Positions 19,288 to 23,594 of a stretch of DNA of 64,000 bases are shown in pieces. Within the stretch, counting starts at the first letter, position 1; each line of letters begins with the position of its first letter. The stretch is from positions 1,922,001 to 1,986,000 of the forward strand of contig NZ_AP022576.1 of the NCBI RefSeq assembly GCF_010730355.1. The letters are read 5' to 3'. Position numbers and translations under genes: made by a program. The stretch is from Mycobacterium florentinum (GTDB lineage: Bacteria > Actinomycetota > Actinomycetes > Mycobacteriales > Mycobacteriaceae). The notes below the pieces were generated by a model. The model did not search any database. It saw only the letters and a list, made by a program, of their open reading frames with translations, and was not told the origin of the DNA.

Positions 19288-19851
19288 TCAGGCCATCAGT
19301 CGGTTCGCGCACGCGATCAGCGCGCGTAACGCCGACTGCGTCGGATCCTCGGACAGGCCCACTGCCCATTCGGCACGGATGCCGTCGCTGCCGCGGATAA
19401 ACGTGGCGGTATACCCGTCCGAAGCCATCTGATGAAACTTCAATGTCTCGATCGCGATCCCGCGCTCGTGCAGCATCGCGGTGAGCGCGGCGATCGGCCC
19501 GCTGGCAGCGGCGGTCGACGTGCGGATGCAATCGCCGACGGTGATCATCGCCCGGAAATTGCGGGCCTGCGGACCGAGCCGCCCGGTGGGCCGATCGGTG
19601 TCGGCGCACACCCAGTGCCCCAGTCGCAGCGGGCCGGCGGTGTGGCCGTAGGCCGTCACGAAGTTTTCCCACGTCATCGCGCCGGCCTGTTCCCGCAGGC
19701 CGAGCGGTAGGGGGACCCCGAAGTTATCGCCGAACCACGCGTTGGCGTCGCGCCGGCAGGCGGGAACCCTGGTGGGATTGCGCTCCGAACGGGAGAACGG
19801 CCTAGAAAAGGGCTCGGAAGAGGGCTTTGTGCGGGGCTGGGTAAGAGGCAC
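19288..19851 (-). CDS. stand-alone LeuA-type allosteric (regulatory) domain protein
   Basis: Up to 187 residues. The C-terminal ~110 residues resemble the regulatory domain of 2-isopropylmalate synthase: SGPIAALTAMLHERGI matches GP(L/I)xAxxxAL, and EWAVGLSEDPTQSALRALIACANR matches the final VWGVGxxxxxxxASLRAVxSAxNR of LeuA. No HMGL catalytic domain is present. The first ~45 residues are Arg/Pro/Ser-rich and may not be translated; MTWENFVTAYG is a plausible internal start. It could bind leucine-like ligands or pair with another enzyme. It converges with cyp136, 9 bp apart. Confidence 0.65.
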   Translation of the reverse strand: MPLTQPRTKPSSEPFSRPFSRSERNPTRVPACRRDANAWFGDNFGVPLPLGLREQAGAMTWENFVTAYGHTAGPLRLGHWVCADTDRPTGRLGPQARNFRAMITVGDCIRTSTAAASGPIAALTAMLHERGIAIETLKFHQMASDGYTATFIRGSDGIRAEWAVGLSEDPTQSALRALIACANRLMA

Positions 19852-19858
19852 GGTGTCG

Positions 19859-19973
19859 GTCTTCTCTGGTCGAAAGGAGCGACCGACGGTAGTAGCTTCC
19901 GACCCACAGCGGGGGGTCGGTCTGGATCAGACCCCGCTGCGGGTGCTGGCTACTACGGCACTCTTCAGAAGAC
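19859..19973. ncRNA. candidate structured RNA / 5' leader
   Basis: Nested complementary segments: GTCTTCT (19859-19865) pairs with AGAAGAC (19967-19973). Inside lie GGTCG-7 nt-CGACC (19868-19884, loop AAAGGAG on the plus strand) and a long arm GTAGTAGC...GCTACTAC (19889-19956) with an inner stem CAGCGGGG/CCCCGCTG. The layout is a closed multibranch junction. It begins 8 bp upstream of the LeuA-domain frame (minus strand) and about 150 bp before the mini-gene cluster (plus strand), so strand and role are open. Confidence 0.4.
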
Positions 19974-20057
19974 GCACGAACGCGACAGTAGACGCCGTTC
20001 GCGCGCTGGTGCAACTTCATTTCGGGCAGCGTGTCCCGCATTACACGCATAAAGCAG

Positions 20058-20083
20058 GTTTACACGTGTCGAATAGTGGCTAT
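20058..20083 (+). promoter_or_regulatory. SigF-like promoter of mini-gene 1
   Basis: GTTT, 16 bp, GGCTAT, one mismatch from the mycobacterial SigF pattern GTTT-N15-17-GGGTAT. The spacer contains the palindrome ACACGTGT. It ends 43 bp before ATG 20127. Confidence 0.5.
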
Positions 20084-20126
20084 CCCGTCGTCGCCTCATC
20101 CCATTCCCCCGACGAAAGGCGCGACG

Positions 20127-20252
20127 ATGAAGTCGAGGGCAGCCGAGAAGGCGCTTGACGCGGCGGCAATGGCGAGGGGGCTGATCGAGGTGTTGCTGGT
20201 ACCGACGAGATTGTCCTCCGCGTGGGAACAGGTAGCGGCCGCACAAAACTGA
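20127..20252 (+). CDS. mini-gene 1: 41-aa paralogue that lost the lipobox Cys
   Basis: ATG at 20127 with GAAAGG upstream encodes 41 residues (MKSRAAEKAL...). It aligns with mini-genes 2 and 3 through MKS, a positively charged start, an Ala-rich middle and LLVPT. Where the others have PTGCST it reads PTRLSS, so the Cys acceptor is gone and the hydrophobic core is interrupted by Arg and Glu. Probably a decayed copy of the same cassette, still carrying promoter and ribosome-binding site. The frame continues upstream to 20031, but that part is the promoter. Confidence 0.5.
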   Translation: MKSRAAEKALDAAAMARGLIEVLLVPTRLSSAWEQVAAAQN

Positions 20253-20264
20253 TCGATCAAACAG

Positions 20265-20290
20265 GTTTACCCGTGTCGAACAGCGGCTAT
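20265..20290 (+). promoter_or_regulatory. SigF-like promoter of mini-gene 2
   Basis: GTTT, 16 bp, GGCTAT. It is nearly identical to the copy at 20058 across the whole element, including GTGTCGAA in the spacer. A small hairpin AGCCGC-AA-GCGGCT follows in the leader. Confidence 0.5.
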
Positions 20291-20348
20291 CCCCTCGTCG
20301 CCTCAGCCGCAAGCGGCTTGCATCCCCTCAGATGAAAGGCAAACGACA

Positions 20349-20498
20349 ATGAAGTCGATGACCGCCAAAAAGACCCTCAAGGTTGCCGCGGCGGCGGCCG
20401 GTCTGGTCGCAGTGATGCTGGTACCGACGGGATGTTCAACGGCGGTGGGCGGCACGGGTGGCAGCGGCGGGCTGACCATCAACCTCCCCAGCCTTTAG
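20349..20498 (+). CDS. mini-gene 2: 49-aa lipoprotein-like peptide
   Basis: Too short for standard ORF limits. ATG 20349 follows GAAAGG. The 49 residues have a signal-peptide pattern: a Lys-rich start (MKSMTAKKTLK), a hydrophobic stretch (VAAAAAGLVAVMLV) and PTG-Cys29, then a Gly/Ser/Thr tail (STAVGGTGGSGG) ending NLPSL. The lipobox lacks Leu at -3 (it is Pro), so lipidation is plausible but not certain. It shares sequence with mini-genes 1 and 3. Function unknown; probably exported to the cell envelope. Confidence 0.6.
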   Translation: MKSMTAKKTLKVAAAAAGLVAVMLVPTGCSTAVGGTGGSGGLTINLPSL

Positions 20499-20671
20499 CG
20501 CGACGAACACCGGCGATCCGGCGCCAACCATCGCGTTGCCGCCGGGAGGTTTCTACCGCGTGAACAGCACTCTTTCCTGTCCGCGGCGCCCGCGACCTGC
20601 GGGATTTCCCCGATTACGTTGTGCCAGTACAGGTATGACAAAACAAATCGTGAGAAACGTCACGAAATCTG

Positions 20672-20697
20672 GTTTACACATGTGCAACAGGGGGCAT
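20672..20697 (+). promoter_or_regulatory. SigF-like promoter of mini-gene 3
   Basis: GTTT, 16 bp, GGGCAT; the -10 part differs from the other two copies and is one base from GGGTAT. The spacer has ACACATGTG in place of ACACGTGTC. The 172 bp between mini-gene 2 and this element show no gene. Confidence 0.45.
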
Positions 20698-20752
20698 GCG
20701 GAGATGTCCGTAACCGTAACGGCTATTTGTCCCCTCTCGGAAAGGCAAGACG

Positions 20753-20923
20753 ATGAAGTCGCAATCCACCAAGAAAACCCTCAAAGCCGGCGCAGCCGCC
20801 CTCGGGCTGGCCGCAATGCTGATACTGCCGACTGGATGCTCGACCGCAGCGGGCGGCGCGGGCGGCGGCGGCGTTCTTGGCGGTAGCAGCGGCGGTACCT
20901 GCATATTGATCGTCTGCCTGTAA
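20753..20923 (+). CDS. mini-gene 3: 56-aa lipoprotein-like peptide
   Basis: ATG 20753 follows GGAAAGG. The peptide starts MKSQSTKKTLK, has a hydrophobic stretch (AGAAALGLAAMLIL), then PTG-Cys29-STAAGG and a long glycine run. The tail ends TCILIVCL with two further Cys (50 and 55) that could form a disulfide. Charge, core, Cys position and STA-GG match mini-gene 2 residue for residue. A strong terminator begins 12 bp after the stop, so the cluster ends here. Confidence 0.62.
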   Translation: MKSQSTKKTLKAGAAALGLAAMLILPTGCSTAAGGAGGGGVLGGSSGGTCILIVCL

Positions 20924-20934
20924 CCGTTCGGGCA

Positions 20935-20980
20935 GGCGGCCCGCCGGGAACATAGGTTCCCGGCGGGCCGCCTTCCTTTT
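20935..20980. terminator. rho-independent terminator, bidirectional
   Basis: A perfect 17-bp stem (20935-20951 with 20956-20972), loop ATAG, followed by TTCCTTTT. It separates mini-gene 3 from the convergent anti-sigma-like gene that ends at 20986, and could stop transcripts from both sides. Confidence 0.9.
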
Positions 20981-20985
20981 CAGCG

Positions 20986-21951
20986 TCAGCCGATTTTCCC
21001 GGCCGCAGAATTCAGCCGCAGGTAGGCCTGAATCGTCGTTCCGGTGCTGGCGGTGTGGGTGCGGACCAGATCCGAGATCGCGTTGACCAGAAACAACCCG
21101 CGGCTGGCCGGGCCGGTCGGGCCCGGGTCCAGGCGTCCCACCAGCGGGTCGTCGAGGCGCCCGTTGTCGCGCGCCTCGCACACCAGGTGATGGTCGTCGC
21201 GCCAAAAGGCCAGCCGGCACGCACCATCGGTGTACATCAGGCTGTTGGTGGCCAACTCGGTGGCGACCAGCTGCAGATCTTCGATGCCGTCCTGGGACAG
21301 CCCGACCCAGCCGGCATAGTTCACCGCGAACGACCGCGCCGGGCGCAGGTCCGCGGATTTGCGGACCATGTAGGTCACCGCGCCGGGATTAGCGGTTAAG
21401 GGCTGATTGCACCGCGCCAGCACGTCATCCGGCGCGTAATCGGCGCTGTGTTGCAGCGAACCGCATTTCCACAGCAGCGGATGAGTCGCGCGGGCGCCTG
21501 CCAGCACATCGTCGTCCAGCCGTTCCGCGTCGTAGAGACACAGCGCGCTGAGCTGCCGATCTTCAAACGCGCTGTTCACCAGCGCCTCGTGCTGCATGCA
21601 GGCCAGGAACTCGTCCGCACTGCGCTCGGGCCAGCAGACCTGGCTCACAATCCGCCCACGCCGGTCCGCGTTCTCCTCGACAAAGGAGCCCTCGAGCGCC
21701 AGAAACCGGCTCGGGTTGCGCGCCACCTCGGCGATGTCCACCAGCTGCAGCCCGGCCGTCGAGCGGTCGCCACCCAGCGCGGCGCGCAGCAAGCCCAAAT
21801 AGTCACGCGGTACCGCCACGAGGACCGGCTCGTCCATCGCCAAGCCTTCGAGGACGAAGGGCACCACGACGTCCAGGTACTCCCGTTGCGAGTGATAGAG
21901 GAGCGCGGAATGAACGAAGGCTTGCCGCCCGTTCTCCGTGCTCCTCACCAT
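20986..21951 (-). CDS. MEDS-domain sensor with HATPase (anti-sigma factor-like)
   Basis: 321 residues from ATG 21951 (GGGAG upstream). Residues ~14-190 form a MEDS/DcmR-like sensory domain (FVHSALLYHSQREYL...FVLEGLAMDEPVLVAVP). Residues ~205-320 are a serine-kinase-like ATPase of the RsbW type: N-box LVATELATNSLMY, then DNGRLDDP and GLFLVNAISDLV. Such proteins bind or phosphorylate partners in general-stress sigma factor pathways. An in-frame ATG at 22026 is an alternative start. It converges on the three SigF-like mini-genes. Confidence 0.85.
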   Translation of the reverse strand: MVRSTENGRQAFVHSALLYHSQREYLDVVVPFVLEGLAMDEPVLVAVPRDYLGLLRAALGGDRSTAGLQLVDIAEVARNPSRFLALEGSFVEENADRRGRIVSQVCWPERSADEFLACMQHEALVNSAFEDRQLSALCLYDAERLDDDVLAGARATHPLLWKCGSLQHSADYAPDDVLARCNQPLTANPGAVTYMVRKSADLRPARSFAVNYAGWVGLSQDGIEDLQLVATELATNSLMYTDGACRLAFWRDDHHLVCEARDNGRLDDPLVGRLDPGPTGPASRGLFLVNAISDLVRTHTASTGTTIQAYLRLNSAAGKIG

Positions 21952-22106
21952 TTCGGCGCTCCCGCTTTCCGTTACCAATGCCAACCCCCTGCTGGACCGG
22001 CTCCCCTTCGTATCCCCGCGCCCCATTGCCTTTCCCAATACCCCGCGCGTGCATTCCTTATGCAGAAAAGTCGTCACGAAACCGCCTCGGCTAGGCGGGA
22101 TGTTCG

Positions 22107-23594
22107 TCACAGCCACCAAGAGGCGGCGGCGTCGAGATGACGGCGAATGCGGTAGCGCGCCAAGCTGTCGTCGCCCGCGGTGATCGCCTCGAGTATCCGC
22201 GAGTGCGCGTGCTCGACGGCGTCGACGTCGCTGCGGGCGGGCGGCTCCTGGCCGGTGCTGGTCCAGTGCCGGCGGAACAACTCCACGATGATCCGCAAAA
22301 ACAGGTCCAACAGCGCGTTGCCGGCCAGTTGCGCCAGTCCGTGGTGGAACCGCAATTCCTCGGATGTCGCCTGACGGGCATCGTCGGCGGCGTGCGCAGT
22401 GCCGTCGAGCGCGGACCGGTGGGTATACAGGAAGGCCGCCACCTCGGGTTCGGCACGCCGTTTGACGACCTTGGCGACGTTGTCGATCTCGATGGCGTCG
22501 CGGACACAACGCAGGTCTTCGCGGCTCGGCTTTCGGTACTGCAGGTATAGCGCGATGGTGTCGATGCTGGCTTGGGCATGGGGCTTGGCGACGACCAGCC
22601 CGCCGCCGGGTCCGCGGCGCATCTGCGCGACCGAGTGATATTCGAGCAGTCGCACCGCTTCCCGTAACACCGCACGGCTCACCCGGTAGCGCTGAAGCAA
22701 CGCCGTCTCGGTGCCGAAGACCGAACCGATCTGCCAGTCGCCGGAGCCGATCTCGTCGCCGATCGTGGCCGCAAGCACCTCGGCCAACTTGCCGCGTGGG
22801 ACTTCCCCGTCGGCCTGCTCACGCCGGTGACCGGGTCGCGCGGCCCGGCCCGCACCTGGGTGATGCTCTTGCAGCCAGGCATTCACGGCTTCGACGTGCC
22901 GTTCGGACAGCGTCTTGGCCCGGGCCGAATCGCCGGCGGTCACGGCGGCCACGATTTCGCAGTGGTCGTGGTGCATGTAGTCGAGCGCCTCGATGGCCTC
23001 GCTTGCCGAGTCGGTGCGCGATCGCAGGGCGTAGCGGGTGGTGAGCCTCATCAACACGTCGATAAATAGTTGGAGCACCGGGTTCTTCGACTGCTCCGCC
23101 AGCGCGATGTGAAACTCGTCGCGCGGCGCCGGCAGACCCGGCCGCCAGTGTTCCTCCTCGCGCAGCACCGCACGCAACCGCTCGATGCCGGCTTCGTCGA
23201 TCCGCTCGGCCGCAAGCGAGGCCGCCAACGGTTCGAGCACCAGCCGCGCGTTGAGCAGATCGGCCAGGGTGGTGCCCAGGTATTCGAGATAGATGACCAC
23301 GGCGCGAGTTGCGGGTCCGGCGTCGGGCTCACTGATCAGCAGACCGCCGCCTGGTCCGCGGCGCATCCGGGCCACCCGATGGTGCTCGACGAGGCGGACG
23401 GCCTCGCGCAGCACCGACCGACTCACGCCATAGCGCTGTTGCAGGGCTTGTTCGGAACCCAGCGATTCGCCGACCGGCCAGCCGCGGCGAACGATGTCCG
23501 CCTCGATTTGGCGGGCAATCGTCGAGGCCAGCTTCTTTGTCCCGCCCGCGGGCGGGATGGGGCTTATCTGATGCTCAATACTGCTCTCCCACAA
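22107..23594 (-). CDS. fused double GntR/FadR-type regulator
   Basis: 495 residues made of two complete FadR-type units. Unit 1 (~20-245) has HTH LGSEQALQQRYGVSRSVLREAVRLVEHH followed by RMRRGPGGGL. Unit 2 (~265-495) repeats it with FGTETALLQRYRVSRAVLREAVRLLEYH and QMRRGPGGGL. Each HTH precedes an FCD-like helical domain, with the metal-binding His/Asp pattern partly kept. Having two winged helices in one chain means one polypeptide can act like a dimer. Matches H37Rv Rv3060c. Targets are unknown; neighbouring lipid genes share a GTGTAC-containing motif. Confidence 0.93.
   Translation of the reverse strand: MWESSIEHQISPIPPAGGTKKLASTIARQIEADIVRRGWPVGESLGSEQALQQRYGVSRSVLREAVRLVEHHRVARMRRGPGGGLLISEPDAGPATRAVVIYLEYLGTTLADLLNARLVLEPLAASLAAERIDEAGIERLRAVLREEEHWRPGLPAPRDEFHIALAEQSKNPVLQLFIDVLMRLTTRYALRSRTDSASEAIEALDYMHHDHCEIVAAVTAGDSARAKTLSERHVEAVNAWLQEHHPGAGRAARPGHRREQADGEVPRGKLAEVLAATIGDEIGSGDWQIGSVFGTETALLQRYRVSRAVLREAVRLLEYHSVAQMRRGPGGGLVVAKPHAQASIDTIALYLQYRKPSREDLRCVRDAIEIDNVAKVVKRRAEPEVAAFLYTHRSALDGTAHAADDARQATSEELRFHHGLAQLAGNALLDLFLRIIVELFRRHWTSTGQEPPARSDVDAVEHAHSRILEAITAGDDSLARYRIRRHLDAAASWWL

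Follow-up and report, generated by a model that had tools for sequence, protein, structure and literature searches.

The locus described here raises two questions: what are the three very short frames that follow one another on the forward strand ahead of a convergent RsbA-type gene in Mycobacterium florentinum, and which signals would switch them on? The window, that is, the whole stretch of DNA analyzed, is 64,000 nucleotides long and comprises bases 1,922,001-1,986,000 of a single-contig 6.22-Mb genome; positions below are counted within it. As the first-pass annotation had proposed, and as reading of the sequence bears out, it holds three cassettes with their parts in a common order: a SigF-like promoter, a leader, GAAAGG ahead of the ATG, and a frame of 41, 49, or 56 codons (ATGAAGTCG at 20127, 20349, and 20753). 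Promoter 1 (20058..20083, + strand; GTTT-N16-GGCTAT, with a conserved spacer) precedes copy 1 (20127..20252, +), which encodes a 41-aa Cys-less paralogue predicted to form a single helix, and promoter 2 (20265..20290, +; GTTT-N16-GGCTAT) precedes copy 2 (20349..20498, +), which encodes a 49-aa lipoprotein-like peptide with VPTG-Cys29. Promoter 3 (20672..20697, +; GTTT-N16-GGGCAT, one mismatch to the core pattern) precedes copy 3 (20753..20923, +), a 56-aa lipoprotein-like peptide with LPTG-Cys29 and a glycine-rich, two-Cys tail. Cys29 is found in both copy 2 and copy 3 and copy 1 has no Cys, likewise as first described, and the leaders, previously put at 44-58 nt, actually span 43-58 nt (43, 58, and 55 nt in cassettes 1, 2, and 3). 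A strong inverted repeat, the probable terminator that had been placed at the end of the group, lies at 20931..20976, where copy 3 gives way to the RsbA-type gene that runs toward it; its arms of 21 nt are 95% complementary, a further analysis gives 18 pairs (a 17-bp stem had been given), and it is kept in 6/6 aligned genomes. A repeat search places the three promoter regions in a single family of 53 nt and joins copy 2 to copy 3 in a 125-nt family with 73% identity.

The three frames are real genes under purifying selection. Independent pairs give pN/pS values of 0.20 for copy 1 (38 silent vs 21 replacement differences, Fisher p 1.9e-11), 0.23 for copy 2 (20 vs 12, p 2.8e-5), and 0.17 for copy 3 (50 vs 20, p 2.5e-15), and a wider set for copy 1 (five pairs from 11 genomes, 10 used) gives 0.25 (p 1.2e-16). 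The alignment of cassettes for dN/dS that had been suggested earlier, run here as pN/pS across relatives, thus supports the genes throughout (0.17-0.25, p 2.8e-5 to 1.2e-16). Four more ortholog sets from other clades, of four genomes each, give independent-pair ratios of 0.08-0.38 (p 1.3e-4 to 1.1e-10). Ratios in the remaining two + frames run from 1.39 to 7.10 and in two minus-strand frames from 0.99 to 8.20. The codon ratio alone does not fix the strand, because low values also come from the antisense frame with the same wobble position, which is open in the genomes compared (copy 1, 0.42; copy 2, 0.25; copy 3, 0.33); with a common third codon position, such a value is the mirror effect expected from coding on the + strand. 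As we read these sequences, the strand is fixed by the promoter, ribosome site, start, terminator, conserved signal, and Cys. Five relatives were checked for stops and frameshifts: every copy 2 and copy 3 that they hold is intact (copy 2 is absent from L046), and copy 1 is intact in four; in the fifth, L038, copy 1 lacks three codons, carries a one-base shift in its last codons, and has a longer frame.

The array belongs to a family with a fixed address. The flanks comprise a cytochrome P450 gene (17755..19278, +; start uncertain), a LeuA dimerization-domain-like gene (19288..19851, -; domain match below the Pfam cut-off), an RsbA-family anti-sigma regulatory protein gene (20986..22041, -; MEDS and HATPase_c_2 by Pfam, start uncertain) that matches NCBIfam NF041045 with 324.7 bits against a cut-off of 210, and a double GntR-FCD regulator gene assigned by Pfam (22107..23594, -); the P450, LeuA-like, and GntR genes are conserved flanks. 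The family profile A1, built from 30 members, matches 67/297 genomes of the genus at E<=1e-3 and 40/297 at E<=1e-7, many of the matches weaker than E<=1e-7 being pieces of long frames. In 39 of the 40 strong-match genomes, the family sits at one syntenic spot, from the LeuA-domain gene to the RsbA-type anti-sigma gene. Thirty-four of the 40 loci were confirmed between these two genes (33 fetched relatives and the window); at L049, the P450 and LeuA side is present and the contig then ends, and in G247, G265, G274, and G283, the RsbA-type gene lies within about 2 kb by coordinates. In the fortieth genome (G129, L070), the family match lies away from the syntenic spot. Island counts given below refer to these 34 islands (39.3 kb in total) and exclude L049, L070, and L071 out of 36 fetched stretches; the lists of island frames are lower bounds, since L061 holds one further family start beyond them.

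RsbA-type matches (E<=1e-80) occur in 93/297 genomes, including all 40 family carriers. Eight loci inspected among the other 53 carriers have the P450, LeuA-like, RsbA-type, and GntR genes in 8/8 cases, and 7/8 of these loci, scanned in RsbA-type carriers without a family match, hold no accepted mini-gene frame. G017 (L118, at 1082 and 1343) holds two diverged small lipoprotein-like frames of 51 and 47 aa that the family profile missed. In G059 (L122/L171), one of the seven without an accepted frame, a promoter with an altered -10, a leader, a ribosome site, and a start codon run directly into the sequence that adjoins the RsbA-type gene, with the gene body absent, an arrangement that looks like a deletion relic. 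Spread beyond the genus was considered and set aside: 15/298 genomes of the order match at E<=1e-4, five of them the genus's own and ten weak (best 2.7e-6), and nine of these ten non-genus matches fall inside frames 173-641 aa long, the remaining one, in G320, inside a frame of 73 aa. A phage origin was likewise rejected, copy 3 having no relative in viral contigs in a single-protein scan. On the favored reading, the array is a set of three duplicated mini-gene cassettes of a conserved family, in support of the small-peptide family grown by tandem duplication that was first suggested.

Several observations concern the neighbors themselves. The fused double GntR-FCD regulator adjoins the RsbA-type gene in 34/34 islands. 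No SigF motif was found upstream of the RsbA-type and LeuA-like genes, and a separate promoter for the GntR gene was rejected, its upstream side being the end of another gene in the nine of 33 rows listed. The leader of the LeuA-domain gene (19845-19975, -) is predicted to form a long, attenuator-like hairpin (GUAGUAGC...GCUACUAC, -58.3 kcal/mol, z -4.15), which is nearly identical in 4/6 aligned genomes, the other two being trimmed in the alignment, and has no Rfam match at the gathering score.

In the 34 islands, the gene strand carries 37 copies of the core motif GTTT-N15-17-GG[GC][TC]AN and the opposite strand one, compared with 7 across 636 kb of flanking strand-bases; 50 Markov-1 simulations average 1.74 and reach 5 at most. 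Reported SigF consensus forms are GGWWT-N16-17-GGGTAY (PMC7693655) and GTTT-N14-19-GGGTA (PMC4694148), and a table of PMC4694148 includes the GTTT-N16-GGGCA form among SigF-dependent genes. All three window promoters have a perfect -35 (GGWWT) and a spacing within 16-17, and each is one base off the -10 consensus GGGTAY. The 34 islands hold 17 gene-strand copies of the form GTTT-N15-17-GGGTAT, and their flanks hold none. The strict form GGTTT-N15-17-GGGTAT occurs twice in the window genome, both times away from the cassettes, and looser SigF sites genome-wide hardly exceed the control (28 vs 18). An 18-bp core allowing one mismatch or none is found in this 6.2-Mb genome at the three cassettes only, and two sigma factors of the SigB/F/G type score over the cut-off in the genome as a whole.

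What sets these promoters apart is the spacer. Among promoter sites picked by [GC]TTTAC with a TA at 19-23 (n=42), the TA falls at 23 in 39, and in these 39 sites the spacer YGTGT-NN-AAYAG carries 1.0-1.83 bits per fixed position and 0.86 at the second Y; 25/30 flanking columns are below 0.6 bits, and it is this contrast with the flanks that counts, because the sites are related by descent. The spacer is conserved above the third base of the -10. A 25-bp element allowing at most one mismatch occurs 35 times in 28/297 genomes, always at the family locus, and 0 times in the backward control; the 28 genomes are 27 with the family and the G059 relic. The promoter form with the conserved 16-nt spacer is confined to this locus among the 297 genomes searched. 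Eight islands (L051, L053, L054, L055, L060, L062, L063, and L069) hold a second class of mini-gene, whose promoters keep the spacer and have CTTT and CGTTAT-like boxes. The variant element of this class is conserved and centers on CTTTAC-N-TGTGT-NN-AATAG-NNGTTATAACATC, and its -10 region also resembles a SigA -10.

Instead of a SigF promoter, or in addition to one, the element might serve a dedicated regulator as operator and promoter in one; the double GntR-FCD protein close by would be an example, with a TGT-N3-ACA-like site in the spacer. We regard this as possible, if unlikely. The degree of spacer conservation relative to the -10, the loss of SigF bases in a second gene class that keeps the spacer, and the restriction of the element to the family locus all fit such a regulator, and GT-N3-AC is an operator form of FadR-type GntR proteins. 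However, AATA in 17/39 sites breaks the dyad, the GntR and RsbA-type genes are also present at the eight inspected loci without a family match, and the 18-bp core, found nowhere else in the window genome, is hence absent before the GntR gene. A SigF-type sigma factor is our favored reader of these promoters, with the reservation that the signal goes beyond a SigF promoter, because the spacer is conserved and copy 3 has a second candidate site.

That site, GTGAGAAACGTCAC at 20650..20663 (+), has the CRP core GTGA-N6-TCAC and precedes the promoter-3 GTTT by exactly 22 nt. At the same offset of 22 among 48 promoter anchors from 32/34 islands, GTGA-N6-TCAC is perfect in 6, has one mismatch in one and two mismatches in two, and has three or more in 39, compared with two mismatches or fewer in 0.36% of 1968 trials at control offsets. 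The perfect sites precede the copy-3 gene in L037, L038, L039, L040, and L046 and a related gene in L041. Copy 3 of the window, which falls outside the 48 anchors because its -10 reads GGGCAT, adds a seventh perfect core at offset 22. The seven cores belong to one clade and therefore reflect conservation rather than repeated gain; GTGA-N6-TCAC is in itself a common motif, at 0.10 per kb in the flanks and 0.20 in the islands. The Crp consensus given in PMC7739888 is TGTGA-N6-TCACA, and the window site has the exact core with C and G as its outer bases. In M. smegmatis, a laboratory relative, SigF and Crp1 are described as the main factors behind the induction of genes under inhibited respiration (PMC7739888). 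The SigF promoters of the first-pass annotation are upheld as SigF-like, but not as the entire signal, given the conserved spacer, the CRP-like site before copy 3, and L037, in which all three promoters deviate and the genes are intact.

The peptides encoded by copies 2 and 3 and their relatives have a lipoprotein-like makeup. At least 60 lipobox-like frames occur in the 34 islands; 32 of them have a core motif at most 170 nt from their start, and 28/60 have none inside that distance. Among 59 distinct lipobox-like frames, the mature part has a median of 31 residues, one third of them glycine; it is uncharged in 40/59 and contains the glycine zipper GxxxGxxxG in 37/59. Further Cys residues occur in 20/59 mature parts, exactly two at the end in 19 and three in a longer frame of L045. 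Copy 2 of the window has neither a zipper nor a tail Cys. In two genomes of the window clade, the copy-3 peptide terminates in GGTCILIVCL, and the remaining four have a zipper tail rich in glycine; with two tail types on one gene, tails can therefore be exchanged. A positively charged n-region and a hydrophobic h-region are present in copies 2 and 3 and in the A1 consensus, and distant members keep the Lys-rich start, the hydrophobic stretch, and the Gly-Cys. G28 and C29 are invariant in 30/30 rows of A1, partly by choice, because the rows were selected as lipobox-like frames. For copy 3, AlphaFold2 predicts an N-terminal helix alone (residues 5-24) at low confidence (pLDDT 51.7). The textbook lipobox, quoted in PMC7296081 as [LVI][ASTVI][GAS]C, is not matched by the window copies, which read VPTGC and LPTGC. 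We use the label lipoprotein-like because 3/59 members fit the textbook set, whereas 44 have Pro at -3; Pro stands at -2 in 8 and Ala at -3 in 4. Overall, these features support the lipoprotein-like character first attributed to the family, whose peptides are probably lipid-anchored.

Copy 1 is a different case. It resembles copies 2 and 3 at its start, and Arg followed by Leu, Phe, or Trp then replaces Gly-Cys. It occurs in 11/34 islands, the other 23 having no Cys-less match at E<1e-3; its alignment (A4) has 10 invariant columns, and the forms in L043-L045 have longer tails. One helix spanning residues 4-40 is predicted (pLDDT 83.6). The idea of an amphipathic helix was dropped, since 638/2000 shuffles reach its moment, which is not significant. 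Copy 1 had been described as having lost the Cys, but the Cys-less form is common to the 11/34 islands and is under selection, and a decaying copy was rejected on the same grounds. From its sequence and distribution, copy 1 is an old Cys-less paralogue and not the product of a recent loss.

A lipoprotein-like group with one Cys-less member invites a comparison with entericidins, in which copies 2 and 3 would be membrane-active lysing or permeabilizing lipopeptides and copy 1 their guard, a function like that of E. coli EcnAB in unrelated proteins. The tandem small lipoprotein-like genes behind stress-type promoters, the uncharged, zipper-like mature parts, and the retention of one divergent paralogue under selection are consistent with this. 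However, the five family peptides searched, copy 1 included, have no entericidin Pfam match at E<=1, only chance-level ones, and a strict pair of toxin and guard is not general, given that 23 of the islands have no Cys-less match at E<1e-3, so that we consider this function improbable. That the transcripts act mainly as small RNAs, or that the antisense strand is the coding one and the + frames are incidental, is scarcely credible: the units are short and separately promoted, and no stop interrupts the wobble-sharing antisense frame of any copy examined, where pN/pS is low as well, but on the + strand promoter, ribosome site, start codon, and terminator are properly arranged around the frames, distant members retain the lipoprotein-like signal, the core promoter motif occurs antisense once in 34 islands, and the low antisense ratio is itself expected from + strand coding. 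A known RNA family was rejected separately, since Rfam has nothing that matches the window at its gathering scores.

We favor, as the rather likely explanation, a stress-induced array of membrane lipopeptides that responds to SigF and cAMP-CRP. It builds on coding selection, synteny, and the conservation of the promoters and the CRP-like site, all of which were observed; SigF and CRP use, export, lipidation, membrane assembly, the role, and the link to RsbA are inferred. A SigF-type sigma factor would switch on three separate transcripts through the promoter form found at this locus only, and cAMP-CRP may act as a second input for copy 3. Copies 2 and 3 would yield exported peptides with about 20-30 mature residues, rich in glycine and without charge, that are lipid-anchored in the cell membrane and probably self-associate through the glycine zipper or the two-Cys tail where present, and copy 1 would remain a helix within the cell or on the face of the membrane. 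The likeliest trigger would be respiratory or stationary-phase stress, because SigF and Crp1 are reported to be major in the M. smegmatis response to respiration inhibition, and the likeliest role would be to change or protect the membrane; the RsbA-type neighbor may feed back on the sigma factor. A fuller version, in which a respiration block acts through SigF and cAMP-CRP, the zipper lipopeptides assemble in the inner membrane, the Cys-less helix restrains them from the cytoplasmic side, and the RsbA-type protein closes the sigma loop as a self-acting membrane system, seems to us distinctly improbable.

The sharing of an unusual stress-type promoter suggests a specialized cell-envelope response to stress, and if this is true, SigF would gain a direct envelope output. 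The signature of a general stress sigma factor and, in one clade, that of cAMP-CRP mark the family, and these are the two main inputs described for respiration inhibition in M. smegmatis (PMC7739888). The locus also displays, in natural sequence, duplication, tail exchange, a diverged Cys-less copy, and an apparent deletion relic, and a promoter form restricted to a single locus raises the question of what reads its conserved spacer. Being very short, the three genes are easily overlooked. The earlier expectation that annotation would miss them is correct in part, as some relatives have been deposited; the named ones are mostly hypothetical proteins and in places "Lipoprotein" or "ORFan". Database relatives are scattered (at least 45 at E<=1e-3 for A1 and 9 for one other member), and close ones come from M. 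triplex, M. stomatepiae, and M. shigaense. The mini-gene peptides match no Pfam or NCBIfam family over the cut-off and solved structures only at chance level (E 0.16 or worse), and the literature searched, which leaves out most subscription journals, shows nothing on the family.

Among known systems, entericidins A and B of Proteobacteria are lipoprotein precursors of 40-50 aa, encoded in tandem in E. coli under the general stress sigma factor. The family described here differs in phylum and sigma factor, in the lack of a Pfam match among five peptides, in its locus-specific promoter, and in its Cys-less paralogue. Stress-induced glycine-zipper lipoproteins of the OsmB and SlyB type have a lipid anchor followed by GxxxG repeats; compared with these, the mature part is much shorter here, a two-Cys end occurs in 19/59 members, and the five peptides searched have no Pfam glycine-zipper match. 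The closest parallel in regulation is the mycobacterial SigF regulon as represented by the consensus forms and table of PMC4694148 and PMC7693655, with which the putatively SigF-dependent promoters of this array share the -35 GGTTT, the spacing of 16, a -10 near GGGTAY, and the GGGCA form, and from which they differ in the conserved 16-nt spacer that marks this locus only.
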